57,500 nucleotides of DNA. It comes from Blautia faecicola. GTDB lineage: Bacteria > Bacillota > Clostridia > Lachnospirales > Lachnospiraceae. Positions 29,128 to 56,214 of the stretch are shown piece by piece (position 1 is the first letter of the stretch; each line of letters opens with the position of its first letter). The notes under the pieces are model-generated. The model had not been told where the DNA came from. It saw only the letters and a program-made list of their open reading frames with translations, and searched no databases. A program made the position numbers and the translations under genes. The stretch lies in assembly GCF_004123145.1 (NCBI RefSeq), contig NZ_SDKC01000001.1, positions 377,501-435,000 of the forward strand, in the 5' to 3' direction.

Positions 29128-29132
29128 GCGAT

Positions 29133-29259
29133 TTACGTGAGCAACGAGCCAAAGTCTATGCTTGCGTGAGACCTTGGCAACTGCCGCGATACCAAGAGGA
29201 AATTTGCAGAGCGAGTTTCCTCTTGGTTACGTGAGCAACGAGCCAAAGTCTGTGTTTGC
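29133..29259. repeat. Pair of direct repeats flanking an inverted repeat
   Basis: TTACGTGAGCAACGAGCCAA and following bases (29133-29165) recur at 29227-29259 with two mismatches. Between them is CCAAGAGGAAA ... TTTCCTCTTGG, a perfect 11-bp inverted repeat. The first copy extends to a 54-nt unit (29137-29190) matched at 39401-39454. The remaining bases of the 500-nt gap up to the sigma gene hold only its promoter. Confidence 0.75.
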
Positions 29260-31552: not shown

Positions 31553-31567
31553 TTTTATCCAAATACG

Positions 31568-31615
31568 AAAAAACAGTGGCAAAGACCTGAAAAATGGTCT
31601 TTGCCACTGTTTTTT
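31568..31615. terminator. Bidirectional terminator
   Basis: AAAAAACAGTGGCAAAGACC (31568-31587) pairs perfectly over 20 bp with its complement at 31596-31615. A and T runs on both sides serve both the upstream plus-strand operon and the minus-strand tetR gene, whose stop codon lies in the T run. Confidence 0.9.
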
Positions 31616-32243
31616 AATGTTTCGAATCGCCCGCAGTCTCATCCGTCCGGTACTGATCGAAGATCCCGCGTACTGCCTGGTGCAGATGCGGTTTGAGTTC
31701 TTCAAGACCTACTGGCTGCTGGTAGAGGATCGCGTTGTAGCTGGTTCCGTTGACAAGTTCGAGGATCAGATACATCATAAGCTCCGGGGAATGATAGGTA
31801 TGATTAGCATTTTGCAGCATCTTATCGTAGATGGTATGGATTGACGGGGTGTCCTCACTCGGTGTGAAGAACAGAGAATTCTTGAAAAATCCCCAGCTCA
31901 GATGCTTGGACAAAAGCCGTACCAGGTTCAGGTTGGATGCCAGCTGATCCAGAATATCATCCATAATAAAGATTACCTGATCTTCAAAATCCCGGATCTC
32001 TGTATGTTTTTGCAGTTTGAGATAGGAATTCTGAAAGACCTGACTGGCTTTGTGAGCGATCAGGTGATTGCGGATATCGTATTTGTCTTTGAAATACAGA
32101 TAAAAAGTTCCTTTTGCCACACCGGCGTTTTTTACGATATCAGAAATCGAAGTCTTATTGAATCCATTGTCTATAAAGAGAGAAAAAGCGGAATCCAGCA
32201 GGGATTCCCTTTTTTGTTGTTTGTTGTGATCGACTTTTCCCAT
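31614..32243 (-). CDS. TetR/AcrR-family transcriptional repressor
   Basis: A 209-aa repressor. The N-terminal helix-turn-helix is typical: RESLLDSAFSLFIDNGFNKTSISDIVKNAGVAKGTFYLYFKDKYDI (about residues 11-56). An all-helical ligand-binding domain follows. The ATG at 32243 gives the normal TetR N-terminus; a 23-residue upstream extension from 32312 is possible but has no better ribosome binding site. It is divergent from the MMPL exporter gene, and the gap holds three copies of a TGAC-N5-GTCA palindrome that are very likely its operators. The inducer is unknown, presumably an exported lipid or drug-like compound. Confidence 0.9.
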   Translation of the reverse strand: MGKVDHNKQQKRESLLDSAFSLFIDNGFNKTSISDIVKNAGVAKGTFYLYFKDKYDIRNHLIAHKASQVFQNSYLKLQKHTEIRDFEDQVIFIMDDILDQLASNLNLVRLLSKHLSWGFFKNSLFFTPSEDTPSIHTIYDKMLQNANHTYHSPELMMYLILELVNGTSYNAILYQQPVGLEELKPHLHQAVRGIFDQYRTDETAGDSKH

Positions 32244-39391: not shown

Positions 39392-39400
39392 TTATTTTAT

Positions 39401-39454
39401 GCGGGCAACGAGTCAAAGTCCGTGCTTGCACGAGACCTTGACGACTGCCGCGAT
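39401..39454. repeat. 54-nt dispersed repeat, copy at pckA/trxB junction
   Basis: GCGGGCAACGAGTCAAAGTC and the following bases match 29137-29190 at 45 of 54 positions. All nine differences are transitions. It sits in the 3' untranslated region of the minus-strand flavoprotein gene. Confidence 0.75.
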
Positions 39455-39462
39455 AATCAAAA

Positions 39463-44065: not shown

Positions 44066-44262
44066 AAGGCTGCGAAGTTTATTTTGAAGTAACTATTCAA
44101 AAGGTAGTATCCCGCGAGGTGTTTTGGCATGTTTTTGCCAAAATCCCGAGACATACAAGTCAAAATGCCATCACCGAAGGTGATTTGAAATGCATTTTGA
44201 CTCGTAACTGTGAGGGTACTGAACAGTTACATTTTGAAAAAAATATACTTCGCAGCCTTTTT
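44066..44262 (+). terminator. tRNA-Ser terminator split by an inserted repeat element
   Basis: AAGGCTGCGAAGT (44066-44078) pairs perfectly with ACTTCGCAGCCTT (44247-44259), and TTTTT follows. The inner bases TATTTT and AAAATA would continue the stem. A 142-nt element (44089-44230) and its 8-bp target duplication sit exactly in the loop. Confidence 0.8.
44089..44230 (+). mobile_element. 142-nt hairpin-rich mobile element, copy 1
   Basis: The ends GTAACTATTCA and TGAACAGTTAC are inverted repeats. ATTTTGAA stands on both sides (44081-44088 and 44231-44238), a perfect 8-bp target duplication. Inside are the conserved strings TATCCCGCGAGG and CCCGAGACATA, and three hairpins: TTTTGGCA...TGCCAAAA; a long GTCAAAATGC...GCATTTTGAC stem enclosing ATCACC-GAA-GGTGAT; and GTAACTGT...ACAGTTAC at the 3' end. 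It has no frame of its own, so it is mobilised by a transposase elsewhere. Confidence 0.85.
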
Positions 44263-44263
44263 A

Positions 44264-44304
44264 CGTTGCAGTGCATATCAATAATTGGTCCGGTGGACTG
44301 ATTT
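44264..44304. repeat. Post-tRNA repeat, copy 2
   Basis: CGTTGCA-G-TGCATATCAATAATTGGTCC follows the split tRNA-Ser terminator, with one mismatch to 2834-2861. The following palindrome half (GGTGGACTGATTTT) is less regular than in copy 1. Confidence 0.7.
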
Positions 44305-44358
44305 TAACGACAAATACAAGTGTCTTGGAAAACCTCCCGTCAGACATCCAACCCTTAC

Positions 44359-44587
44359 AAAAATAGCCAACACCCAGCCCGGAGGGAGATACATAAGGGA
44401 AGGGACAGCATTTTGTGCGCGGGTAGAGCGAGTTTTAAGATCCTGTGCTTACGTAGACTTTCGCGAGTGCCAGCTGGCACTCGTGAATCATAGTCGGAGT
44501 TAGCACATAGCTTAAAATCGCTCTGCGCACTGCTGTCCCTTCCCTTATGTATCTCCCTCCGGGCGTCCCCCCCCGTTGGCTATTTTT
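44359..44587. repeat. 229-nt giant imperfect hairpin next to the SRP RNA gene
   Basis: The outer arms AAAAATAGCCAAC (44359-44371) and GTTGGCTATTTTT (44575-44587) are followed inward by CCCGGAGGGAGATACATAAG and further bases that pair with the right half for about 50 bp. After a looser middle section the centre is the perfect palindrome CGAGTGCCAGCTGGCACTCG (44464-44483). On the minus strand it begins about 13 nt past the SRP RNA 3' end. It could be a MITE or a structured 3' extension of the SRP transcript. Confidence 0.8.
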
Positions 44588-44599
44588 CAAACTTTAAAA

Positions 44600-44858
44600 G
44601 CGCACCGCCCTTCGAACTCCCTCCACAGACGTTACTCCTGCAGTTAACTCGGCCCAGGCACCCTTACGGCACACAGAAGGTTCTGCTTAGTGCTGCTCCA
44701 TTCCTGACCTGACACGGTTCACAGATTCCTGTTGCGTAAGACCCAGACGTCAACGCCACTTACAGAAGGCAGCTCTGCAAAGAAAAGCCCTCAGTTTGGT
44801 ATCACCCCTGCTGTAGCGGATTGCAGGTACAGGGCACCGCTAACTCCCCGGCTGCGCA
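44600..44858 (-). ncRNA. ffs: Signal recognition particle RNA, large (Bacillus-type)
   Basis: The minus strand contains the hallmark domain IV apex GTCAGGTCAGGAATGGAGCAGC (positions near 44690-44711), GGTGCCCTGTACCTGCAATC near the 5' end, GTTGACGTCTGGGTCTTACG, and the closing CTGGGCCGAGTTAACTGC. Length is about 259 nt, as in Firmicutes with an Alu domain. Ends are approximate; the 5' end is inferred from the promoter. It provides the RNA core of the Ffh particle for membrane protein targeting. Confidence 0.93.
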
Positions 44859-44864
44859 GGATTC

Positions 44865-44893
44865 AGTATATCGTGTTTTTTTTAATTTGTCAA
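44865..44893 (-). promoter_or_regulatory. Strong promoter of the SRP RNA gene
   Basis: Minus-strand TTGACA (44893-44888) and TATACT (44870-44865) have the optimal spacing of 17 nt. Confidence 0.88.
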
Positions 44894-44968
44894 TCTGAAT
44901 CGTGATATTTACTTGTGAGAGTGGCGAAAATGGGCTATAATAATAACCAGATGATATTGTAAAAAAAC

Positions 44969-45110
44969 GTAACTATTCAGTAGGTAGTATCCCGCGAGGT
45001 GTTTTGGCATGAATATGCTAAAATCCCGAGACATACAAGCAAAAATGCCATCACCGAAGGTGATTTTAAATGCATTTTGTCTCGTAACTGTGAAGGGACT
45101 GAACAGTTAC
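44969..45110 (+). mobile_element. 142-nt hairpin-rich mobile element, copy 2
   Basis: Same length, same terminal inverted repeats (GTAACTATTCA/TGAACAGTTAC) and about 90 percent identity to the copy at 44089. The hairpin loops differ (TGAATA for TGTTTT). No clear target duplication is seen. It lies between the SRP RNA promoter and the phosphofructokinase gene. Confidence 0.83.
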
Positions 45111-45117
45111 GAAAAGA

Positions 45118-45158
45118 TACAGATGCCCGGCACCGGAAAACAGTGCGGCGATCTGTAG
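45118..45158 (+). promoter_or_regulatory. Hairpin in the pfk leader
   Basis: TACAGAT-GCC-CGGCAC pairs with GTGC-GGC-GATCTGTA with small bulges, 68 nt before the pfk ATG. There is no T run, so it may be a regulatory leader or part of an older repeat. Confidence 0.4.
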
Positions 45159-45225
45159 GAAGAATTTGTAACCGGAGCAGTGAAAACCGGCTGCAAAAAT
45201 CTGAAAAGAAGGACGGAAAAAAGGT

Positions 45226-46305
45226 ATGAAGAGAATTGGTTTACTGACAAGCGGCGGAGACTGCCAGGCTCTGAACGCGACCATGCGAGGCGTAGTAAAA
45301 GGACTTTCCCACAATATCGATGACCTGGAAGTCTATGGATTCATGAACGGATATAAAGGTCTGATCTACGGAGATTATCGAATGCTGACAGCAAAAGATT
45401 TTTCCGGTATTCTGACCCGCGGCGGCACGATCCTCGGTACATCCCGTCAGCCATTCAAACTGATGCGTACCCCGGATGCCAACGGACTGGACAAAGTAGA
45501 AGCGATGAAACAGAACTATCATAAACTGAATCTGGACTGCCTGGTAATCCTTGGCGGTAACGGAACCCAGAAGACCGCCAACCTGTTAAGAGAAGAAGGA
45601 CTGAATATCATCCACCTGCCAAAGACGATCGATAACGATATCTGGGGTACAGACATGACCTTCGGTTTCTACAGCGCAGTGAATATCGCGACAGAAGCGA
45701 TCGACTGCATCCATACAACCGCATCCTCCCACAACCGTGTATTTATCGTGGAAGTTATGGGACATAAGGTAGGCTGGCTGACTCTGTACGCAGGAATTGC
45801 CAGCGGTGCAGACGTTATTCTGATTCCGGAGATTCCGTATAATATCGACAAAGTAGTGGAGGCCATCGAGAGAAGAAAGAGAAACGGAAGCGGATTTACG
45901 ATTCTGGCAGTAGCAGAAGGTGCGATCTCCAAAGAGGACGCGCAGCTTGGCAAAAAAGAACTGAAAAAGAAAATGGAAGAAGATAAGAAACTTTACCCGT
46001 CCGTTTCCTATAAAGTGGCAAAAGAGATCGAAGACCGCACCGGTATGGAGATACGTGTAACGGTTCCGGGACATACCCAGAGAGGTGGAAGCCCGTGTCC
46101 ATACGACCGTGTACTGTCCACAAGACTTGGTTCTGCGGCAGCAAAACTGATCCTGAACGATGAGTACGGCTACATGGTAGGTCTGGTCAACGGAAAGACC
46201 AAAAAAGTGCCGCTGGAAGAGTGTGCAGGAAAACTGAAAGTGGTAACACCGGATGCACAGGAGATCAAAGATGCCAAGAGAATCGGCATCAGCTTCGGTG
46301 ACTGA
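45226..46305 (+). CDS. 6-phosphofructokinase (PfkA-family, mixed/group III type)
   Basis: Cytoplasmic glycolytic kinase of 359 aa. It has the N-terminal LLTSGGDCQALNA (residues 6-18), a phosphate-donor loop GGNGT (110-114) and the catalytic PKTIDND (132-138). Classical ATP enzymes have GGDGS and PGTIDND; pyrophosphate enzymes have Asp after GGD and a Lys in PKTIDND. This protein keeps the small Gly but has Lys, the combination of the intermediate group whose members use ATP. The donor should therefore be tested. The leader contains the copy-2 mobile element and a hairpin. A 27-nt remnant of the same element family follows the stop. Confidence 0.9.
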   Translation: MKRIGLLTSGGDCQALNATMRGVVKGLSHNIDDLEVYGFMNGYKGLIYGDYRMLTAKDFSGILTRGGTILGTSRQPFKLMRTPDANGLDKVEAMKQNYHKLNLDCLVILGGNGTQKTANLLREEGLNIIHLPKTIDNDIWGTDMTFGFYSAVNIATEAIDCIHTTASSHNRVFIVEVMGHKVGWLTLYAGIASGADVILIPEIPYNIDKVVEAIERRKRNGSGFTILAVAEGAISKEDAQLGKKELKKKMEEDKKLYPSVSYKVAKEIEDRTGMEIRVTVPGHTQRGGSPCPYDRVLSTRLGSAAAKLILNDEYGYMVGLVNGKTKKVPLEECAGKLKVVTPDAQEIKDAKRIGISFGD

Positions 46306-46315
46306 TGCAGAAAAT

Positions 46316-46342
46316 GTAACTGTGAAAATACGGAACAGTTAT
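46316..46342. repeat. Solo 3' hairpin of the 142-nt element family
   Basis: GTAACTGTGAAAATACGGAACAGTTAT matches the last 27 nt of the element (GTAACTGTGAGGGTACTGAACAGTTAC) at most positions and folds alone. It starts 10 nt after the pfk stop. Confidence 0.5.
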
Positions 46343-46362
46343 GAAAAATAATACGATAGACG

Positions 46363-46397
46363 GAGAGGGGCTGGTCTTTGCGACAGCCCTATCTCTT
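46363..46397 (+). terminator. Probable terminator of pfk
   Basis: GAGAGGGGCTG and CAGCCCTATCTC form an interrupted stem followed by TTTG. It stands about 60 nt past the pfk stop. Confidence 0.6.
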
Positions 46398-46445
46398 TGT
46401 AACATTGTATATTAAAATTGACAGATTGAGGAGAGGCAGAGAAAC

Positions 46446-48071
46446 ATGAGCTATACCGCTCTATATCGTAAGTTCCGTCCGGACACCTTCGAGGATGTCA
46501 AAGGGCAGGATCATATTGTAACAACATTAAAAAATCAGATTCGTGCGGACCGTATCGGTCACGCATTTTTGTTCTGTGGAACCCGTGGAACCGGTAAGAC
46601 GACCGTGGCAAAGATCCTTGCGAAAGCGGTCAACTGTGAGCAGCCGGTGGATGGAAGTCCCTGTAACGAATGTCCGACCTGTAAAGCGATCCAGGCGGGA
46701 ACATCCATGAACGTGATCGAGATCGATGCGGCATCCAACAACGGTGTCGACAACATCCGTGAGATCCGGGAGGAGGTTACCTACCGTCCGACACAGGGAA
46801 AATACAAGGTGTATATCATCGATGAGGTGCATATGCTGTCAGCAGGTGCATTTAACGCACTGTTAAAGACACTGGAGGAACCGCCGTCTTACGTCATCTT
46901 TATTCTGGCGACGACCGAATCCCACAAGATCCCGGTAACGATCCAGTCTCGGTGTCAGCGGTACGATTTTCACCGTATTTCCATCGACACGATCGCCGGA
47001 CGGCTGCGGGAACTGATGGAGAAAGAACAGATTCCGGTGGAGGAGAAAGCACTTCGCTATGTGGCGAAGGCGGGAGACGGTTCCATGCGAGACGCGTTGA
47101 GTCTTCTGGATCAGTGCATCGCCTTCTATCTGGGACAGGAACTGACCTTTGATAAGGTGCTGGAAGTGTTGGGAACCGTGGATACGGAAGTGTTCAGCAA
47201 ACTGCTCCGCAAAGTGCTGGAACAGGATGTCACAAGCTGCATCCATATCCTGGAAGATCTTCTGGTCAATGGAAAAGAACTGGGACAGTTTGTCAATGAC
47301 TTTACCTGGTATCTGCGAAATCTTCTGCTGGTCAAGACCTCCGAAGACGCGGAAGAAGTCCTGGATGTATCTTCGGAAAATCTGAAAGCGCTGCAGGAAG
47401 AAAGCCAGCTGATCGATACCGATACACTGATGCGCTATATCCGTGTATTATCCGAACTTTCCAACAATCTGCGAAATGCCACACAGAAGCGGGTGCTGGT
47501 GGAAGTGGGATTGATCAAATTATGTAAACCTGCAATGGAAACGAACCTGGATTCTGTCCTGGACCGTCTCCGGGTGCTGGAAGAACAGATGGAAAAAGGA
47601 ATTCCGATGGCGGCAGTTCAGCCACTTCCGGGTTATGCTGGAAGGAACGATGGCAGTCCGGCACAGCCAACGCAGGCAGTTCCGTCCGCACCGGAAAAGA
47701 AACCGGAGAAAGCGGCTCCGGAGGATCTTCAGCGGATCAAGGAAAACTGGAAAAGTATCGTGATGCAGACACAGGGAATGTTCAAGACATTTTTAACAAC
47801 TGCCGTGCCGAAATATAACGGCAATACCGGGGAGAATAAATTATATGTGGAATTCTCGAATGATCTGGCGCAGACCTGTGTGGACGATCCGGACAAAAAG
47901 CAGTTACTCGAGAGTCTGATTTTGCAAATGACGGGGAAAACCGTGGAAGTGGAGATGCTTTTAAAGAAAACAAATATGCATCAGGACTTGGCAGAAATCT
48001 CCGTTGATGATATATTAAAACAGACGGTTCACATGGATATCGTGGTAGAAGAAGAACCGGACGATGAATAA
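46446..48071 (+). CDS. dnaX: DNA polymerase III subunit gamma/tau
   Basis: Clamp-loader ATPase of 541 aa. It has Walker [10 protein letters not shown] (residues 45-53), a four-cysteine zinc module (Cys64, 73, 76, 79), Walker B IIDEVHML, the SRC motif QSRCQRYDF and sensor 2 in [14 protein letters not shown]. The C-terminal tau-like extension after a Pro/Glu linker (about 400-430) is short. GGAGAGG lies about 11 nt upstream of the ATG. It starts the conserved dnaX-ybaB-recR order and overlaps or abuts the next gene. Confidence 0.96.
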
Positions 48072-48106
48072 TGAATGATTTTAAGAGAAAACAGGAGGAA
48101 CCAATC

Positions 48107-48457
48107 GTGGCAAAACGTGGTGGATTTCCAGGCGGCATGGGTATGCCTGGTAATATGAATAATCTGATGAAACAGGCGCAGAAGATGCAGAAACAGATGG
48201 AAGAGAACCAGAAAGCGCTGGAAGAGAAAGAATTTACGGCAGCAGCAGGCGGCGGAGCCGTAGAAGTAACCGTAAGCGGTAAAAAAGAAGTGACCAAAGT
48301 CAAACTGGCAGAAGAAGTCGTAGATCCGGATGACGTAGAAATGTTAGAGGATCTGATCATGGCAGCCACCAACGAGGCACTCCGCAAGATGGAAGCTGAG
48401 ACACAGGCTGTGATGTCCAAACTGACCGGTGGTCTGGGTGGAGGATTCCCGTTCTAA
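48107..48457 (+). CDS. YbaB/EbfC-family nucleoid-associated protein
   Basis: A 116-aa DNA-binding dimer of the YbaB family. An N-terminal Gly/Met-rich stretch ([19 protein letters not shown]) is followed by a helix [22 protein letters not shown], the strand pair with [16 protein letters not shown] and a C-terminal helix. The GTG at 48107 is chosen because AGGAGG precedes it by 8 nt and homologues begin MAKRGG. It lies in the canonical place between dnaX and recR. Confidence 0.93.
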
Positions 48458-48458
48458 G

Positions 48459-49055
48459 ATGGAATACTACAGCAGTCATATCAGCAAGTTAATTGAACAG
48501 CTGTCAAGGCTTCCGGGCATCGGCGCAAAATCAGCCCAGCGTCTGGCATTTCACATCATCAACATGCCGCAGGATCAGGTAGAGCAGCTTGCGGGTGCGA
48601 TGACCAGCGCGAGATCGAATGTCAGATACTGCAAAGAATGTTTCACGCTGACCGATCAGGAACTGTGCCCGATCTGTGCCAATCCGAAGCGGAACCATAA
48701 GCAGATCATGGTTGTGGAAAATACAAGAGATCTGGCAGCTTATGAAAAAACCGGCAAATACGAGGGCGTGTATCATGTCCTCCATGGAGCCATCTCCCCG
48801 ATGCTGGGGATCGGTCCGGGAGATATCCGGTTAAAAGAGCTGATGCTGCGTCTGCAAAAAGATGTGGATGAAGTGATCATTGCCACCAATTCCAGTCTGG
48901 AAGGGGAGACGACAGCCATGTATATCAGCAAACTGATCAAACCTACCGGTATCAAAGTGAGCCGTATCGCAAGCGGCGTTCCGGTCGGCGGTGATCTGGA
49001 GTACATCGATGAAGTAACACTACTGCGTGCGCTGGAAGGACGCGTAGAATTATAA
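48459..49055 (+). CDS. recR: Recombination mediator RecR
   Basis: A 198-aa protein that with RecO/RecF loads RecA at gaps. It has the N-terminal helix-hairpin-helix (RLPGIGAKSAQRLAFHI), a four-cysteine zinc finger (Cys58, 61, 70, 73) and a Toprim domain (VVENTRDLAAYE; GPGDIRLKELMLRL; EVIIATNSSLEGETTAMYI). It starts 2 nt after the ybaB stop. Confidence 0.96.
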   Translation: MEYYSSHISKLIEQLSRLPGIGAKSAQRLAFHIINMPQDQVEQLAGAMTSARSNVRYCKECFTLTDQELCPICANPKRNHKQIMVVENTRDLAAYEKTGKYEGVYHVLHGAISPMLGIGPGDIRLKELMLRLQKDVDEVIIATNSSLEGETTAMYISKLIKPTGIKVSRIASGVPVGGDLEYIDEVTLLRALEGRVEL

Positions 49056-49065
49056 GGAAAAAACG

Positions 49066-50172
49066 ATGGCAAAGAAGAAAGCAACTTCTATGGATGTGGC
49101 CCGGGAAGCAGGAGTTTCCCAGGCCACTGTTTCTATGATATTAAATAAAAAATATAACGTATCTTTTTCCAAAGAGACGATCCGTCAGGTGACGGAGGCG
49201 GCGGAAAGGCTGGATTATCATCTGCCCAAACAGCGGATCCGCCGGTCGGCAAAGAGCAGAAAACTTCTGGTCGTGTTCTGTCCAACGCTGACGAACCCCT
49301 ATTATGTCATGCTGTTGCAGGGCATCGAAGCCATGGCAAAGGAATACGGATACGGCGTGTTTGTCTGCAACACCCAGAGGGATCTGAAGATCGAAGAGAA
49401 TTATCTGCGGATGATGCGGGAAGTGCAGCCGCTGGGGATTATTTACGCCTGCAATCCGAGTTTCAGCCGACAGGTGGCAGAACTCTCCCGGGAGATTCCG
49501 GTGGTAGTCATCAGTAACCGTGACGATGAATTTTCCATTGATGCGGTAGCTCTGAACAATCAGAAACCGGGGATCCTGATGGCGCGTCATCTGCTCGAAC
49601 TTGGACACCGGGATGTGGCATTTATCGCACCGCCGCTGACGGCGCGGCAGCATCAGCGACAGAAACGTGTGGGCGGTTTTCTGATGGAGTTTGAAAAGGC
49701 GGGACTTTCGGATTATGTGCTGGTGTGCTCCGCGGCAGACAGCAAAGATACGGAGATTCCGAATATTGAATCGGAGTACCGGATGGGATACGATCTGACC
49801 GTGGAACTGCTCCGGGAAGACTGTCCGATCACAGCGATCGCGGCACTGAATGATATGATGGCATTTGGGGCAATGGATGCCCTTCTCGAGCGTCAGTACC
49901 GGATCCCGGGGGATATCTCGGTGGTTGGATGCGACAACACCCTGTTTTCCCGGTTCCACACGATCGGACTCACAACGGTGGAACATTTCGTGGATCAGAA
50001 AGGGCGGGATGCCTGTGACATTATCCTTCGAAAGATCGAATCGCAGAAGAGTTACCGCAAGGGAGACGAGCCTACCAGTATTTACCATATCGAGTATGAA
50101 CCGCGTCTGATCGTCCGCGGAAGCACCGGATATGCGCCGGATGAGAGCCACCGCGAAAAAAAGAAAAAATAA
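49066..50172 (+). CDS. LacI-family transcriptional regulator
   Basis: A 368-aa repressor. The N-terminal HTH is SMDVAREAGVSQATVSMILNKKYNVSFSKETIRQV (residues 8-42), with a hinge helix and then a periplasmic-binding-protein-like sugar domain (about 65-340). It reads as the last gene of the dnaX cluster (10 nt after recR) but lies just upstream of the transaldolase/transketolase genes, which are plausible targets. No clear LacI palindrome is evident in the AT-rich gap that follows. The C-terminus is lysine-rich. Confidence 0.92.
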   Translation: MAKKKATSMDVAREAGVSQATVSMILNKKYNVSFSKETIRQVTEAAERLDYHLPKQRIRRSAKSRKLLVVFCPTLTNPYYVMLLQGIEAMAKEYGYGVFVCNTQRDLKIEENYLRMMREVQPLGIIYACNPSFSRQVAELSREIPVVVISNRDDEFSIDAVALNNQKPGILMARHLLELGHRDVAFIAPPLTARQHQRQKRVGGFLMEFEKAGLSDYVLVCSAADSKDTEIPNIESEYRMGYDLTVELLREDCPITAIAALNDMMAFGAMDALLERQYRIPGDISVVGCDNTLFSRFHTIGLTTVEHFVDQKGRDACDIILRKIESQKSYRKGDEPTSIYHIEYEPRLIVRGSTGYAPDESHREKKKK

Positions 50173-50351
50173 ATGGTTTTTCTGAAAATATTAATAATAA
50201 AATAAATAAGAAAATAGCGAAAATAAAGAAAAAACTCAAGATAAACGATGAAAAACGTATCATATAACGATTAATAATCCGCTACTATTAATAAAAAATG
50301 TTATTAATAAAAATTCACTCTTGTTGACCGTGAAAATAAACCTGCTATACT
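50173..50351 (+). promoter_or_regulatory. AT-rich region and promoter of the transaldolase gene
   Basis: TTGACC (50324-50329) and TATACT (50346-50351, spacing 16) form the promoter. The 150 nt before it are almost pure A+T, with three TATTAATAA-type repeats near 50269, 50286 and 50301 that could act as UP elements or a curved region. No gene is seen here. Confidence 0.7.
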
Positions 50352-50417
50352 GAGGGCAGAAAATAAAAAACGCCGGAAATGATCGGCAGATTTCAGGAAA
50401 AACAGGAGGACAAAATA

Positions 50418-51071
50418 ATGAGATTTTTCATCGATACCGCGAAAGTAGAAGACATCAAAAAAGCAAATGATATGGGCGTGATCTGTGGTGTTACCACCAA
50501 CCCGTCCCTGATCGCAAAAGAGGGAAGAGACTTTAAAGAAGTCATCAAAGAGATCACTTCTATCGTAGACGGACCGATCAGCGGTGAAGTAAAAGCAACG
50601 ACTGTAGACGCAGAAGGCATGATCGCGGAAGGAAGAGAGATCGCAGCAATCCATCCGAACATGGTTGTAAAAATCCCTATGACAGTAGAAGGTCTGAAAG
50701 CCTGCAAAGTGCTGACAGCAGAAGGCATCAAGACAAACGTAACACTGATCTTTACTGCAAACCAGGCACTGCTGGCCGCAAGAGCAGGTGCAACCTATGT
50801 TTCTCCGTTCCTGGGAAGACTGGATGATATTTCCACAAGAGGTGTGGATCTGATCCGTGAGATCGCTGAGATTTTCGAGGTAGCAGGTCTGGACACACAG
50901 ATCATCGCAGCAAGCGTAAGAAATCCGATCCATGTAACCGACTGTGCACTGGCAGGTGCTGATATCGCAACCGTTCCATACGCAGTCATTGAACAGATGA
51001 CAAAACATCCGCTGACCGATGCCGGAATCAAAAAATTCCAGGATGATTACAGAGCAGTATTCGGCGAATAA
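50418..51071 (+). CDS. Transaldolase, FSA/TalC-type small form
   Basis: A 217-aa class I aldolase of the TalC/fructose-6-phosphate aldolase subfamily. It has [11 protein letters not shown] (residues 3-13), [13 protein letters not shown] (24-36), the Schiff-base lysine K85 in [37 protein letters not shown] and IIAASVRNP. Together with the split transketolase that follows it supplies the non-oxidative pentose phosphate pathway. AGGAGG precedes the ATG at 50418. Codon use indicates high expression. Confidence 0.95.
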
Positions 51072-51096
51072 TAACACGTATTAAAGGTATAGAGTC

Positions 51097-51125
51097 TTGC
51101 AATATTTTTCAAAATGTGGCATACT
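51097..51125 (+). promoter_or_regulatory. Promoter of the transketolase genes
   Basis: TTGCAA (51097-51102) and CATACT (51120-51125) are spaced 17 nt apart, between the transaldolase and the N-terminal transketolase gene. Confidence 0.6.
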
Positions 51126-51176
51126 AAGACGGCGAATGAGCAATAATTCTAAGCAGTGTACGGAAAGGAGTACAGA

Positions 51177-52013
51177 ATGAACAAACTGGAGCTTCAGAAA
51201 GTAGCAAATGAAGTCCGCAAAGGAATCGTAACCTCAGTTCATGCTGCAAAAGCAGGACATCCGGGCGGATCTTTATCAGCAGCAGATATTTTCACATACT
51301 TGTATTTTGAAGAGATGAACGTGGATCCGAAAGATCCGGAAAAAGCAGATCGTGACCGCTTTGTATTGTCCAAAGGACATACAGCGCCAGGTCTTTACAG
51401 CGCACTTGCACTGAAAGGATATTTCCCGGTAGAAGATCTGGAAACCTTACGTCATCTGGGATCTTACCTGCAGGGACATCCGGATATGAAACATATCCCG
51501 GGCGTAGATATGTCCAGCGGTTCTCTGGGACAGGGAATCTCCGCAGCAGTAGGTATGGCGATCGCGGGCAAGATGGACAATGCCGATTATCGTGTATACA
51601 CACTGTTAGGTGACGGTGAGATTCAGGAAGGACAGGTATGGGAAGCTTCCATGATGGCAGGATTCCGCAAACTGGATAACCTGGTAGTGATCGTAGATAA
51701 TAATAATCTGCAGATCGACGGAGCAATCGATGAAGTTTGTTCTCCATATCCGATTGATAAAAAATTCGAAGCATTTAACTTCCATGTAATCAACATCGAC
51801 GGTAACGATTTTGACCAGATCGATGCAGCATTCAAAGAAGCAAGAGCAACCAAAGGAATGCCGACAGCAATCATCGCTCACACCGTAAAAGGTAAAGGCG
51901 TATCCTTCATGGAAAATCAGATAGGCTGGCATGGAACCGCTCCGAACGACGAGCAGTATGCAGTAGCAATGGAAGATCTGAAAAAGGTAGGTGAAGCATT
52001 ATGTCAGAAGTAA
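51177..52013 (+). CDS. Transketolase, N-terminal subunit
   Basis: A 278-aa thiamine-diphosphate-binding half. It has AAKAGHPGGSLSAADIFTYL (residues 23-42), SKGHTAPGLYSAL, the ThDP/Mg motif GDGEIQEGQVWEASMMAG (about 145-162) ending in DNNNLQIDG, and KGKGVSFMENQIGWHG. In many Firmicutes transketolase is encoded as two proteins that assemble. AAGGAG stands 7 nt upstream of the ATG. Its stop overlaps the C-terminal subunit gene by 13 nt. Confidence 0.96.
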   Translation: MNKLELQKVANEVRKGIVTSVHAAKAGHPGGSLSAADIFTYLYFEEMNVDPKDPEKADRDRFVLSKGHTAPGLYSALALKGYFPVEDLETLRHLGSYLQGHPDMKHIPGVDMSSGSLGQGISAAVGMAIAGKMDNADYRVYTLLGDGEIQEGQVWEASMMAGFRKLDNLVVIVDNNNLQIDGAIDEVCSPYPIDKKFEAFNFHVINIDGNDFDQIDAAFKEARATKGMPTAIIAHTVKGKGVSFMENQIGWHGTAPNDEQYAVAMEDLKKVGEALCQK

Positions 52014-52942
52014 AGAAAATTGCAACCAGAGAAAGTTATGGTAACGCCCTGGTAGAACTGGGAAAAGAGCACGAAGACCTGGTAGTTCTGGATGCAGACC
52101 TGGCAGCTGCCACCAAAACCGGTATGTTTAAGAAAGTATTTCCGGAACGCCATATTGACTGTGGTATCGCTGAGTGTAATATGATCGGTATCGCAGCAGG
52201 TCTTTCCACCGCAGGAAAAGTTCCGTTTGCAAGTTCTTTTGCAATGTTTGCAGCAGGACGTGCTTTTGAACAGGTAAGAAACTCTGTAGGATATCCGCAC
52301 CTGAACGTAAAGATCGGTGCAACACACGCCGGTATTTCCGTAGGAGAAGACGGTGCAACGCATCAGTGTAACGAAGATATCGCCCTGATGCGTACCATCC
52401 CGGGCATGGTTGTCATCAACCCGTCCGATGATGTGGAAGCAAGAGCAGCTGTAAAAGCAGCATACGAATATCAGGGACCGGTATACCTGCGTTTCGGTCG
52501 TCTGGCAGTGCCGGTGATCAATGACCGTCCGGATTACAAATTCGAGATCGGAAAAGGTGTTACCCTGAGAGAAGGAAAAGACGTGGCAATCATCGCTACC
52601 GGTCTGTGTGTAAACTCTGCACTGGAAGCAGCTGAAAAACTGGCAGCTGACGGTATCGAGGCGAAAGTAGTCAACATCCATACCATCAAACCTCTGGATG
52701 AGGAACTGGTTGTTGCAGCAGCAAAAGAATGCGGTAAAGTAGTTACCGTAGAAGAACATTCCGTAATCGGCGGTCTGGGAAGCGCAGTATGCGACGTACT
52801 GTGCGAGAAAGCTCCGACTCCGGTACTGAAGATCGGTGTGCAGGATGTATTCGGCGAGTCCGGTCCGGCAGTAAAACTTCTGGAAAAATACAAACTGGAC
52901 GGACAGGGTGTATACGAGCAGGTAAAAGCGTATATCCAGTAA
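52001..52942 (+). CDS. Transketolase, C-terminal subunit
   Basis: A 313-aa pyrimidine-binding and C-terminal half of transketolase. It has RESYGNALVELGKEHEDLVVLDADLAAATKTGMF (from residue 9), the catalytic-glutamate segment CGIAECNMIGIAAGLS, THAGISVGEDGATHQCNEDIALMR and a C-terminal domain with VVTVEEHSVIGGLGSAV. It is translationally coupled to the N-terminal subunit gene. Confidence 0.96.
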   Translation: MSEVKKIATRESYGNALVELGKEHEDLVVLDADLAAATKTGMFKKVFPERHIDCGIAECNMIGIAAGLSTAGKVPFASSFAMFAAGRAFEQVRNSVGYPHLNVKIGATHAGISVGEDGATHQCNEDIALMRTIPGMVVINPSDDVEARAAVKAAYEYQGPVYLRFGRLAVPVINDRPDYKFEIGKGVTLREGKDVAIIATGLCVNSALEAAEKLAADGIEAKVVNIHTIKPLDEELVVAAAKECGKVVTVEEHSVIGGLGSAVCDVLCEKAPTPVLKIGVQDVFGESGPAVKLLEKYKLDGQGVYEQVKAYIQ

Positions 52943-52975
52943 TTACATTTAAGAAAAAATTAAAGTGTACAGAAC

Positions 52976-53005
52976 TTTACAGTAAGAGAATACTTACGGT
53001 ATAAT
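52976..53005 (+). promoter_or_regulatory. Promoter of the HD gene
   Basis: TTTACA (52976-52981) and TATAAT (53000-53005) are separated by 18 nt. It lies before, not after, the terminator-like hairpin at 53011, so transcripts would begin at or inside that hairpin. Confidence 0.6.
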
Positions 53006-53010
53006 AAGAC

Positions 53011-53041
53011 AGGGAATGGAGAGTTATTTTCTCCATTCCCT
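53011..53041 (+). terminator. Terminator-like hairpin after transketolase
   Basis: AGGGAATGGAGA and TCTCCATTCCCT pair perfectly over 12 bp, followed by GTTT. It ends the transketolase message but also coincides with the expected 5' end of transcripts from the promoter at 52976. Confidence 0.75.
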
Positions 53042-53045
53042 GTTT

Positions 53046-53134
53046 ATGTACTCTCGGAGTCTTTCTGCACTTGCTTTTGCGGCTGATTTTCCGCCAGTCG
53101 CAAAAGCAAGTGCAGAAAGATTCCGAGAGTACAT
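53046..53134. repeat. 89-nt long hairpin in the HD-gene leader
   Basis: The 35-nt arms beginning ATGTACTCTCGGA (53046) and ending TCCGAGAGTACAT (53134) are complementary except for one mismatch. The loop GCTGATTTTCCGCCAGT can itself pair partially. It has no T run. It may be a recombined repeat or a structured leader of the HD gene. Confidence 0.8.
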
Positions 53135-53200
53135 GTTTTGCAAAGCTGGAAAATATGTCTGTACGGTAAATGGTACGGAAAATAATAGGAGATCAGAAAA

Positions 53201-53932
53201 ATGCCAGAAAAAATGTCAGGAAAACGGGCAAAAGATTCACGGGAGAATCTCAGAAGAAAACGGAGAGAGCACACGAAAGAAAATCTGGAGTTTTATGAGT
53301 GCATCCGTGATATCGTCGGTCATCCGGCAGTATTGGAGATGAAAAAATTTTATCAGCACTGTGATACGGACTGCTACGAGCATTGTCTGGATGTAGCGTA
53401 TAACAATTATAAAATCTGCAAAAAATTAGGTCTGGATGCCCGTTCCGCGGCGCGAGGCGGCATGCTCCACGATCTGTTCCTGTATGACTGGAGAGAACAC
53501 CGGAAAGAGACGGGTGACCGGCTGCACGCCATCACCCATCCGATCACTGCCTATCGGAATGCCTGCAAATATTTTCATCTAAACAAGGTGGAAAAAGAAG
53601 TGATCACCAAACATATGTGGCCGGTATCCGTGATCCCGCCAAGATATCCGGAAACGTATGTGATCTGTCTGACAGACAAATACTGTGGCTCACGGGAGAT
53701 CATGAATCATTATGCAAAAATAATACAGAATAAATACTGGGGCAAACCATTTGCCTGGTTTTTAAAACAGATCTTTGCGAAAGTGCCCCGGGCAGATCTG
53801 CTTCAGGAGATGCTGCCGGAACTGGTTTCGATGGAGAGGGCTGCAAGTCCGGAATCCTCTTTCGCCCAGCAGAGATCCCGCCGTTCTTCCCGGTGGAACC
53901 ATCCGTCAGGAAGAAGACCGCGCCGCTCATAG
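53201..53932 (+). CDS. HD-domain phosphohydrolase
   Basis: A 243-aa cytoplasmic protein. A basic N-terminus precedes an HD domain with HCDTDCYEHCLDVAYNNYKI (about residues 53-72), GGMLHDLFLYDWREH (HD pair) and HAITHPITAYRN, so a metal-dependent phosphohydrolase is likely; the substrate is unknown. GGAG stands about 10 nt before the ATG at 53201. The last 35 or so residues are an Arg/Ser-rich tail read antisense to the 3' end of the convergent yyaC gene (130-nt overlap), which suggests the original stop was lost and the tail is not functional. Confidence 0.87.
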   Translation: MPEKMSGKRAKDSRENLRRKRREHTKENLEFYECIRDIVGHPAVLEMKKFYQHCDTDCYEHCLDVAYNNYKICKKLGLDARSAARGGMLHDLFLYDWREHRKETGDRLHAITHPITAYRNACKYFHLNKVEKEVITKHMWPVSVIPPRYPETYVICLTDKYCGSREIMNHYAKIIQNKYWGKPFAWFLKQIFAKVPRADLLQEMLPELVSMERAASPESSFAQQRSRRSSRWNHPSGRRPRRS

Positions 53933-54477
53933 ACCGGTGAGAAAGTCCGTAAGATCCCATCGGTGATGGTATCTGCCATCTGCACGACGAAGGAAAGCCG
54001 TGTAGTCTGAAGCAGAAAATGTTCAAAAGAACCGGAAGCGTTGAGGATTCCGGTAATATAGAGATCGCCAACCGCCGGAAGATTTTTGCGCACTCCGGAT
54101 CCCGGATGGATCGGACCGATACCGGCGGTAATATACCCGATATGTTTCTGAGAACCGAGAGAGGCATCCACTGCGAGAATCAGCGCAGACGGATGTCTTT
54201 TTTTGATGCCGGAAAGCGTAGATTCCAGATTGAGGGCGTGAACCGGTGCATCCAGCGTTCCGTAGATATGAATATTTTTCCAGCGATACCGGGAAAGCTG
54301 CTGACCGATCAGAGGTCCCAGACTGTCCCCTGTGATCCGATCACTTCCGATGCACAGAATGATGATCTCCTTCCAGGAACGATCGATCTGACCGATACAT
54401 TTTTTCAGCACATGCGCCAGTTCATTGCTGGCGGTGCGTTTCTTCTCTCTGATATAATACGAAACTTCTCTGCGCAT
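53803..54477 (-). CDS. yyaC: Spore protease YyaC
   Basis: A 224-aa GPR-related putative peptidase found in spore formers. Key segments are IILCIGSDRITGDSLGPLIGQQL (about residues 40-62), YGTLDAPVHALNL, LILAVDASLG and GIGPIHPGSGVRKNLPAVGD, including the conserved Asp residues of the hydrogenase-maturation/GPR fold. Its exact role in sporulation is not established. The ATG at 54477 is preferred because AAGGA lies at workable distance; GTG at 54486 is too close. It is the best single sign that the organism sporulates. It overlaps the HD gene at its 3' end and is divergent from the LysM gene. Confidence 0.87.
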   Translation of the reverse strand: MRREVSYYIREKKRTASNELAHVLKKCIGQIDRSWKEIIILCIGSDRITGDSLGPLIGQQLSRYRWKNIHIYGTLDAPVHALNLESTLSGIKKRHPSALILAVDASLGSQKHIGYITAGIGPIHPGSGVRKNLPAVGDLYITGILNASGSFEHFLLQTTRLSFVVQMADTITDGILRTFSPVYERRGLLPDGWFHREERRDLCWAKEDSGLAALSIETSSGSIS

Positions 54478-54679
54478 TCGGATCACGCGTCCTTTCTGTG
54501 TGATAACATCAAATATTTACCTATATTGTACCCGGAGAGACGAAAAAATATGCCCGACGGTTTTCCAAACAAGAAAGAACCTGCGGAAAATGTCGTTAAA
54601 AACCCCGTATTTTCCTGCACAAAGCGGCAAAATCCGCACAGAAAGCGGCGTATACTGGGTTCTAAAAGGGGTGAAGAGT

Positions 54680-55903
54680 ATGATCGAAGTCATCTATAAA
54701 GAAGAAACCGATAACACAAAGGAAAATGCAGAATGTGTGAAACTGCCAAACAACGTAAGACAAATCGGAGAGATCAAAGGGCAGAAAAAAATATATATGG
54801 AAGACTATGTCTACACCTTTTTGAAAAAGATCGCGCGGAATCCCCACGGAGATGAGGTGGCGGCGATTCTGTTCGGTTCCTGCCACTGGACCAGCCAGGG
54901 CGATTATATTTTTATCCGAAGCGCCCTGCAGATCCGGGATCTGGAACTTTCGCCGGAACATATCCGGTTTGACGATAAAGTCTGGGGACAGGTGTATGAG
55001 GACAGCAAAAAATATTTCCCGGAGCAGGAGATCGTCGGCTGGTTTGCTGGATTTCCCGGATTTAACATGGAGATCACCGAAGAGATCCGAAAGACGCATC
55101 TGGATCATTTTGCAGGAAATGACAAAGTGCTGTTTCTGATGGAACCGGGGGAGATGGAAGAGGCTTTTTATGTCTATGAAAATAATCAGCTGGTGCGGAT
55201 GCCGGGACATTTTATCTATTATGAAAAAAATGATCCGATGCAGGCGTATATGATCGACAGGAGTGAAAATAAATCCATCGAGGAGACCGAACATGTGCCG
55301 GACCGTGCGGTGATTGATTTTCGGAGAGCGGCGCGGGAGAAGAAAAAAGAGACAACGGAAGCGGAGAAAGCAGAGAAGGCGAAGAAACATCCGGTGCGAA
55401 ATCGCTGGCTGGCAGGAGCCTGTTGTGCGGCTGCGATGCTTGCGGTGGGACTGCCCTATCTGAACCAGTATCAGAACGCGAAGGAGGCGGTGCAGACGGG
55501 AAGCCAGCGTGTTGCAGTGACCAGCGAAGCACAGAAGGCTGTCGAAGAGCCGCTTCTTTCCCCGACAGTGACGGATGAGCCGGAGGAGAGTCTGACACCG
55601 GTTCCGACACAGGGAAACACACAGGAGAGTCTGAATCCGCAGGCGAACCAGGAAGCTTCAGAAGAAAGCAGTACACCAACGTTGCAGCCCTCAGCAGAAA
55701 AAGAAGAAAAAAAGGAAGAACAGCAGGCAGCAGCCGATATTAAGACCATTACCTATACGATCCAGAGAGGGGATACGCTCACAAGTATCTGCCAGAAACG
55801 CTATGGAACGATCAGCCGGATCGATGAGATCTGCCAGCTGAACGGAATTTCCCCGGAGGATATCATTTATGCAGGGGGGAAACTCCTGTTACCGGAGTCA
55901 TAA
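54680..55903 (+). CDS. Membrane protein with degenerate MPN/JAB-like domain and LysM
   Basis: A 407-aa protein. The N-terminal part (about residues 38-200) looks like an MPN/JAB fold: EVAAILFGSCHWTSQGDYIFIRSALQIRD, then GWFAGFPGF (120-128) where active JAMM peptidases have GW-hydrophobic-HxHPGF. Both zinc-binding histidines are therefore missing. A transmembrane segment (LAGACCAAAMLAVGLPYL, about 254-271), a long Gln/Glu/Pro/Thr-rich linker and a C-terminal LysM domain (ITYTIQRGDTLTSICQKRYG...YAGGKLLLPES, about 360-407) follow. The topology puts LysM outside, bound to peptidoglycan, and the pseudo-enzyme inside. AGGGGTGA precedes the ATG at 54680. The stop codon lies in the target duplication of a mobile element. 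Confidence 0.8.
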   Translation: MIEVIYKEETDNTKENAECVKLPNNVRQIGEIKGQKKIYMEDYVYTFLKKIARNPHGDEVAAILFGSCHWTSQGDYIFIRSALQIRDLELSPEHIRFDDKVWGQVYEDSKKYFPEQEIVGWFAGFPGFNMEITEEIRKTHLDHFAGNDKVLFLMEPGEMEEAFYVYENNQLVRMPGHFIYYEKNDPMQAYMIDRSENKSIEETEHVPDRAVIDFRRAAREKKKETTEAEKAEKAKKHPVRNRWLAGACCAAAMLAVGLPYLNQYQNAKEAVQTGSQRVAVTSEAQKAVEEPLLSPTVTDEPEESLTPVPTQGNTQESLNPQANQEASEESSTPTLQPSAEKEEKKEEQQAAADIKTITYTIQRGDTLTSICQKRYGTISRIDEICQLNGISPEDIIYAGGKLLLPES

Positions 55904-55908
55904 GCGTG

Positions 55909-56214
55909 CTACTGTTCACTCCGTGCCCAGTAACACGCTGTACGATGCACAGAATTTATGCTGATCGCATAAATTCGCGCGATATGTCTCGGGTTTTCTG
56001 TGACCTTCGCTCACAAAAAACGCCTCGCGGGATATTACTAGAGCGTGTTTGAAAAATCATTTCCGCAATTTGCAAGCCCCACTTTGCGGTATATTTTACC
56101 CTCATTCGGTTGCCGTAGCCCGCTACGCCGCCCTCATTCGGATAAAATCTCCCACAAACTGAGACTCGCAGCTCACGAAAAGCCTTTTTCAGACACGCTC
56201 TAGTGAATAGTAAC
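55909..56214 (-). mobile_element. 142-nt-type mobile element, copy 3, interrupted by a MITE
   Basis: Read on the minus strand it has GTTACTATTCACT at one end, TATCCCGCGAGGCGTTTT, AAAACCCGAGACATA and GTGAACAGTAG at the other, in the same order as the copies at 44089 and 44969. TAAGCG flanks both sides (55901-55906 and 56215-56220), a probable worn target duplication that includes the stop codon of the upstream gene. Removing the nested 160-bp MITE and one TA leaves 144 nt, essentially the length of the other copies. The hairpin stems differ in sequence from those copies but are still paired. Confidence 0.8.
56041..56200. mobile_element. 160-bp MITE with TA target duplication
   Basis: The ends GAGCGTGTTTGAAAAA (56041-56056) and TTTTTCAGACACGCTC (56185-56200) are inverted repeats with one mismatch. 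TA flanks both sides (56039-56040 and 56201-56202), as expected for a Tc1/mariner- or IS630-type element. It has no frame. A decayed relative lies at 27181. It is inserted within copy 3 of the 142-nt element. Confidence 0.82.

Follow-up and report, generated by a model that had tools for sequence, protein, structure and literature searches.

Cassette-built repeats of Lachnospiraceae as probable miniature DNA transposons with a fold apparently selected in the spreading copies

This study deals with a short, hairpin-rich repeat that occurs three times in a 57,500-nt stretch of the Blautia faecicola genome (contig NZ_SDKC01000001.1, positions 377,501 to 435,000; this whole stretch is called the window in the following). 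A preliminary description of the window had proposed three related copies and this was confirmed: copy 1 (44089-44230, 142 bp) and copy 2 (44969-45110) lie on the plus strand and copy 3 (55908-56214) on the minus strand, with scores of 173.9, 165.8 and 37.1 bits, respectively, for the covariance model R1 of the element. The shared string TATCCCGCGAGG.GTTTT is present in all three copies with 0 mismatches, where shuffled sequences are expected to give 0.10 matches even at three or fewer mismatches. Copies 1 and 2, which are 92% alike across 142 nt, represent subfamily (class) A and copy 3 represents class B. No Rfam family matched the element at the gathering score, either in the window or in 12 loci.

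Copy 1 is flanked by the 8-bp target duplication ATTTTGAA (44081-44088 and 44231-44238, 8/8 matching) and contains the conserved 5' core CCGCGAGG (44112-44119), the hairpin H1 (TTTTGGCA/TGCCAAAA, 44122-44143), the conserved 3' core CCCGAGACATA (44145-44155), the hairpin H2 (GTCAAAATGC/GCATTTTGAC with the inner stem ATCACC/GGTGAT, 44159-44201) and the terminal hairpin H3 (44204-44230), in which the right terminal repeat is preceded by its own inner inverted copy. Downstream of tRNA-Ser (cga), the element separates the two halves of a strong hairpin; the joined flanks read as a stem followed by a T run, and the interrupted hairpin is probably the terminator of this tRNA gene. A general preference for hairpin targets was considered and rejected (mean score of 3.20 versus 3.16 at 126 sites), which leaves the insertion of copy 1 into a terminator loop as a single case. 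In copy 2 the target duplication has decayed to 5/8 matching positions. Copy 3 is of a 145-bp type, enlarged by a nested insertion; its target duplication is degraded (1/8 in register), and it carries the H1 hairpin of class B (TTTTTTGTGA/TCACAGAAAA, with one T.G, 55994-56020), the hairpin H2b (GAATTTATGC/GCATAAATTC, 55952-55976) and H3 (55908-55934). The nested insertion (56038-56203, minus strand, a span that covers both CTAG copies) is an unrelated small inverted-repeat element with the ends CTAGAGCGTGTYTGAAAA and AGAGCGTGTYTGAAAA and CTAG on both sides; the same sequence begins beside the match in locus L061.

The preliminary description had also stated that the stems of the three copies diverge in sequence but stay paired. 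The stem pairs that it named do exist, GGCA/TGCC versus TGTGA/TCACA as well as the H2 stems of copy 1 versus those of copy 3. However, the stems of copy 2 are partly broken (GGCA/TGCT, and GCAAAAATGC versus GCATTTTGTC), and the second hairpins of copies 1 and 2 on the one hand and copy 3 on the other hand are different cassettes. The comparison of these second hairpins therefore reflects a cassette swap and not a pair-by-pair drift, so that covariation had to be demonstrated separately within each cassette, which was achieved as described below.

The repeats form a superfamily that is built from exchangeable folded cassettes. From 5' to 3', an element consists of the terminal repeat, a 5' cassette, the hairpin H2 and the hairpin H3. 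Cassette I, found in classes A, B and related ones, has the form CCGCGAGG.GTTTT-H1-AAAA-(T)CCCGAGACATA, and its H1 stem comes in many variants. Cassette II is that of class D and comprises a hairpin with the loop TTTAC (37/62) or CTTGC (16/62), followed by a CGTAAGAAA-like sequence. The second hairpin exists in two alternative forms, H2a and H2b. Class D has H2a, H3 and the ends in common with class A and has a different 5' half, and the hybrid element at locus L054 joins a class A head to a class B tail. An additional outer helix around the core of cassette I was tried and dropped, since it is weak (reached by 13/300 permutations) and disappears once the register is fixed (452 and 421 of 500). 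The core might presumably also be read as tandem G.A pairs or a kink-turn, which we do not claim.

These elements have moved by transposition. They are bounded by terminal inverted repeats of the type GTWACTRTTCA, which occur as pairs and of which the own genome contains 186 matches compared to 11 for the reversed control (with the first 100 places listed). Most of 167 complete copies with fitted ends are 142-145 bp long (mostly 130-150 bp in the superfamily as a whole), which leaves no coding room. An exact 8-bp duplication flanks 102 of these 167 copies and at least seven of the eight positions match in 127, in a set in which the duplication itself helped to choose the ends; exact duplications of other lengths were seen in only three copies (7 bp in two, 10 bp in one), and exchanged flanks gave exact 8-bp duplications in 0.07%. 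In a second set of 124 copies, composed of 100 of 103 covariance-model matches and 24 loci from the family search, the ends were placed by the covariance model regardless of duplications, and still 57 copies have an exact duplication and 81 have at least seven matches (55 and 79 of 121 after removal of three sequences repeated from the first set). The duplicated target is AT-rich with an enrichment of G at its first base (47/102). As judged by a simple ORF finder, 137 of 143 tested copies lie outside open reading frames (ORFs) of at least 100 codons and six lie inside, the rest of the 167 being too close to the end of the locus. All tested properties of miniature inverted-repeat transposable elements (MITEs) were thus found, except for a known parent. 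The terminal repeats, the exact duplications and the lack of coding room speak for the idea of the preliminary description that a trans-acting enzyme moves the element, but the enzyme itself was not found in the loci searched.

A long form of 233 bp accounts for 11 of the 167 copies. Its extra module contains a motif of about 60 nt (GAGCAACGAGYCAAAGTC..TGCTTGC..ACCTTG..TGCCGCGATA; about 1530-1592 in L261), which is also repeated in the window at 29132-29191, 29227-29259 and 39396-39455. Short derivatives of 27-53 bp retain 7-8 of the 8 duplicated bases. The five listed hairpin-less derivatives of the own genome (41-51 bp) all differ in sequence, which suggests separate deletions in place. Eight units of 27 bp that consist of H3 only (L084, L152, L213, L224, L231, L240) are flanked by 7-8 of 8 matching bases; a deletion that runs from the left repeat to its inner copy could have produced them. 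When right ends were paired with left ends, 173 had a partner, in 10 sizes of 20-239 bp, and 93 had none; in Anaerocolumna, end pairs of 31, 123, 128 and 154 bp were observed, plus a doubtful one of 251 bp. The 3' end of R1, with H3, also matches weakly at 46317-46341 of the window (E 0.014); this may be a solo end hairpin.

Covariation of the stems was examined in three alignments. In alignment A1 (27 sequences), 97.1% of 886 pair cells are paired and 14 of 33 pairs have changed on both sides; none of 500 shuffles reached the pairing or the covariation score, and slid controls were paired to 29-41%. The class D alignment A4 (38 sequences), whose structure omits misaligned outer H2 pairs, is paired in 94.2% of 1022 cells with 19 of 27 pairs changed on both sides, and 0/500 shuffles matched it on any measure. 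For H2b (alignment A5, 19 sequences) the corresponding values are 90.2% of 245 cells and 9 of 13 pairs; no shuffle out of 500 reached the pairing or covariation score and three reached the number of pair types, although a slide by two columns still pairs 62%. A homemade tree-based null (not R-scape) was used in addition, in which Fitch substitutions on a FastTree phylogeny were redistributed over the branches and a G statistic with average product correction was computed; the tree derives from the same short sequences, among which recombination is likely. With helix pairs alone tested, 8 of 28 gave E<0.05, namely five in H1, two in H2 and one in H3, the H2 rows (two of the eight) being less reliable because the class B H2 arms are misregistered. 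The claim of a selected structure is supported in this sense. Three results are to be set beside this: the number of further pair types in A1 is not exceptional, as it was reached by 122/500 shuffles; H1.6 and one terminal-repeat pair are the only ones to pass when tested against all column pairs; and with class A taken by itself, which counts against our interpretation, none passed E<0.05 in the test against all pairs (lowest values 0.26 for H2.2 and 0.82 for H1.6).

The distribution of these changes over the tree indicates where selection acts. Among changes that leave a Watson-Crick pair, the ratio of compensated to broken pairs is 2:47 on the tips and 22:23 on internal branches (Fisher p 5e-7), with the reservation, which counts against our interpretation, that tips have had less time for a second change and that this may feed the contrast. 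Copies with a decayed target duplication are also less well paired (0.932, n=17) than those with 7/8 matching bases (0.977, n=10) or an intact duplication (0.972, n=49). Tip changes outnumber those on internal branches in the left terminal repeat (34:12), the H3 loop (21:6) and the core (11:4), but not in the spacers (14:17) and the H2 stems (21:26). In our view, landed copies decay neutrally and selection acts on those that continue to spread. As the fold decays in single inserted copies but is kept in the lineage that spreads, it is most likely of use to the element and not to the host. A dispersed RNA or 3'-UTR regulator of the host, which would keep each fold for instance to stabilize or process mRNAs, might be suspected from the position of copies near stop codons (median distance of 25 bp from the preceding gene in the ++ arrangement) and from the covarying stems with conserved unpaired stretches, part of the set having been found by requiring the core. 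We nevertheless regard it as unlikely, since the tip copies break pairs nearly without compensation, copies with decayed duplications are less paired and the orientation relative to co-directional genes is near even (53:39, p 0.17). The compensated changes might instead be a mutational by-product of template switching, which copies one arm of a hairpin onto the other without any selection. Several double transversions (GC to CG, CG to AT) that need no wobble intermediate would fit such a process; however, it should be visible in landed copies as well, which the tips contradict, and it does not predict the excess of G.U described below, so that we consider this explanation unlikely as well. In our opinion, these repeats of Lachnospiraceae are probably miniature DNA transposons that are non-autonomous and form one superfamily with covarying folded cassettes, the fold being selected in the copies that spread.

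Whether the fold is selected as RNA or as DNA can be approached by non-canonical pairs, because selection on a plus-strand RNA should tolerate G.U but not A.C. On the tree, 30 events lead to G.U and 14 to A.C (p 0.023). Distinct arm pairs give G.U:A.C ratios of 15:6 for cassette II, 25:12 for the outer H2a stem, 5:2 for H2b, 11:6 for H3 and 9:9 for the inner H2a stems, in sum 65:35 (p 0.0035, arm pairs not being independent of each other). H1 was counted separately, and the row for cassette I (33 arm pairs, 8:13) was excluded since it is one base out of register. Furthermore, class B H1 has T.G in 21/23 sequences and an outer H2b pair is G.U in 15/19. These observations speak against a fold that acts only as DNA, be it a cruciform or a hairpin of a single strand, when the transposase recognizes the element or the target is processed. 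Such a DNA-only role is nonetheless quite conceivable, if somewhat less probable than its opposite, as mobility takes place at the DNA level, H3 is made of two copies of the terminal repeat, the orientation is near even and both strands of the class A, B and D examples have a more stable fold than shuffled sequences (eight folds, z -3.4 to -11.7). Several points argue against an RNA form: the excess of G.U on the tree is just 15:10 without H3, the inner H2a stems show none, the near-even orientation is not the clear bias that a cis-acting RNA might show, and in the examples of A and D the more stable fold is that of the minus strand. The folding energies of plus and minus strand (-50.2 and -54.3 kcal/mol for A, -64.1 and -54.7 for B, -49.7 and -54.7 for D) do not settle the strand. 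Taken together, an RNA form is modestly favored over DNA. The more far-reaching idea that an own folded RNA from the exchangeable cassettes is needed for spread, the selected unit being the transcript of an active copy and not the inserted copy, is rather speculative.

The mode of propagation that we envisage for these transposons is as follows. A DDE transposase supplied in trans would act on the GTWACTRTTCA-like terminal repeats, and insertion duplicates 8 bp of an AT-rich target. Since compensation is found on internal branches and hardly at tips, the fold appears to be selected in progenitor copies that give rise to new ones, and would thus act in propagation, either as folded plus-strand RNA or as folded DNA that is recognized during transposition. 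Most landed copies would then drift freely in the host. The assumption of the preliminary description that the hairpins might be needed for transposition fits the contrast between tips and internal branches.

The search for the mobilizing enzyme did not favor this scheme. An autonomous partner with the same ends and an exact duplication is absent from all 499 loci. Long units that carry such ends and duplications were looked for in the window and 263 loci, and the two chance-like hits were rejected as their ends are mutually unlike. In 30 IS66 loci from 120 family genomes there are eight single matches to the end motif with one mismatch and no bounding pair, in 13 IS256 loci from five genomes of the genus there are six such single matches and again no bounding pair, and none of 20 extended IS66 loci is bounded by GTWACTRTTCA ends. 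The best-looking IS66 match, at L299, was discarded since its position is that of the transposase ORF's end; the true end of the element there is GTAAGCG. Three other pairs at extended IS66 loci were likewise rejected as chance-like (two mismatches per end or 7/8 duplicated bases). IS66 elements are similar to the present elements in their 8-bp target duplication and GTAA ends, but none was seen with actual GTWACTRTTCA ends. In 9 of the 20 extended loci the ends could be placed, and all of them start with GTAA and have 7-8 of 8 duplicated bases. The closest of these ends belong to an IS66 element at L490 (1245-4139, ends GTAAGTACTCA), which is also caught by the end motif with two mismatches and is 9/11 like the class A end GTAACTATTCA, a likeness that could be due to chance given that several ends were compared. 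IS66 copies of the own genome have the ends GTAAACGTCAAACC and 8-bp duplications, and the 8-bp duplications of the present elements are those expected of an IS66-derived MITE. Because GTAA ends and 8-bp duplications are common to both and one IS66 element resembles class A at 9/11 end positions, an IS66-like enzyme would be our best guess for the mobilizer, but no more than that.

In the own genome (3.74 Mb), 44 BLAST matches to copy 2 correspond to at least 40 class A loci, because a roughly 90-bp insert divides four of the copies; this is a lower bound with 40 of 105 candidates scored. Class B is present in at least 10 near-complete copies plus fragments, also a lower bound (40 of 76 candidates scored). 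The preliminary description had suggested a covariance-model search of Lachnospiraceae, and R1 indeed detected the element in 57 of the 299 family genomes that were sampled, the own genome included (10 candidates scored per genome). Across the class it was found in 2 of 291 genomes, the own genome and one member of Lachnospiraceae. By BLAST, 7 of 41 relatives possess it, among them all five of the same genus. A scan by named taxon yielded at least 120 stretches, and the 80 listed ones belong to Blautia, Oliverpabstia, Anaerocolumna sp. MB42-C2 and metagenome assemblies labelled Lachnospiraceae, Eubacteriales, Clostridia or Eubacterium; the core appears over-conserved in this set since the scan required it. 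Plasmids gave no match to a class A copy and viral contigs gave 0 matches for the core. In a phage collection there were matches in 7 and 2 unannotated faecal records labelled Bacteriophage sp., from which we draw no reading.

REPINs are small hairpin-bearing mobile DNAs that rely on an enzyme in trans and in this respect resemble the present elements. To our knowledge, they do not transpose with terminal repeats and target duplications, which distinguishes them from the present elements. Prokaryotic MITEs are likewise short without coding room, have terminal inverted repeats and direct repeats of the target, occupy AT-rich intergenic sites and form stable stem-loops (PMC10969869), whereas the present elements have stems that covary across many genera and exchange their folded cassettes, and a parent IS was not found for them in the loci searched. 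The repeats bcr1-bcr18 of the Bacillus cereus group are interspersed as well: they are 100-400 bp long, bcr1 occurs in tens of copies, bcr1-3 are called MITE-like, bcr10 and bcr18 have a conserved secondary structure and about half of the copies are found in transcripts (PMC3446304, PMC6542083). However, the mobility of bcr elements is linked to a TTTAT motif (PMC6542083), and the present elements have variable 8-mers as duplications in place of such a motif, GTWAC ends and other hosts. MRSC-65-2, one of the mobile/repeat sequence candidates, is also a structured motif with dozens of copies and inconsistent gene orientation, for which its authors leave RNA or DNA form undecided; it differs by its UYCCGG repeat and its occurrence in diverse phyla (PMC11109978), the present element being found in one family only within the samples. 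Among the listed matches in the open-access literature there is no description of the element; subscription papers are mostly outside this search, which does not establish absence from print.

The window contains some further repeats and hairpins. A 47-nt repeat is found downstream of tRNA-Pro (2829-2875) and, 87% identical, downstream of tRNA-Ser (44259-44305). A perfect 34-bp inverted repeat (44377-44410 and 44531-44564, 120 nt between the arms) adjoins the signal recognition particle (SRP) RNA gene (44598-44859, minus strand). Two long hairpins are located at 53046-53134 (40-nt arms, 95% complementary) and 31558-31625 (30-nt arms, 87% complementary).

If our interpretation of the repeats as miniature transposons with a selected fold is correct, widespread intergenic repeats of gut bacteria would be members of one modular mobile superfamily, in which the structure is conserved and the sequence turns over. 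Covariation in intergenic motifs would then not need to imply a host-functional RNA, and the superfamily would offer a natural system in which to test why a fold is kept by miniature transposons, be it as RNA or as DNA. Moreover, its many clear insertion sites could be used to track recent genome change in Blautia, Oliverpabstia and their relatives.

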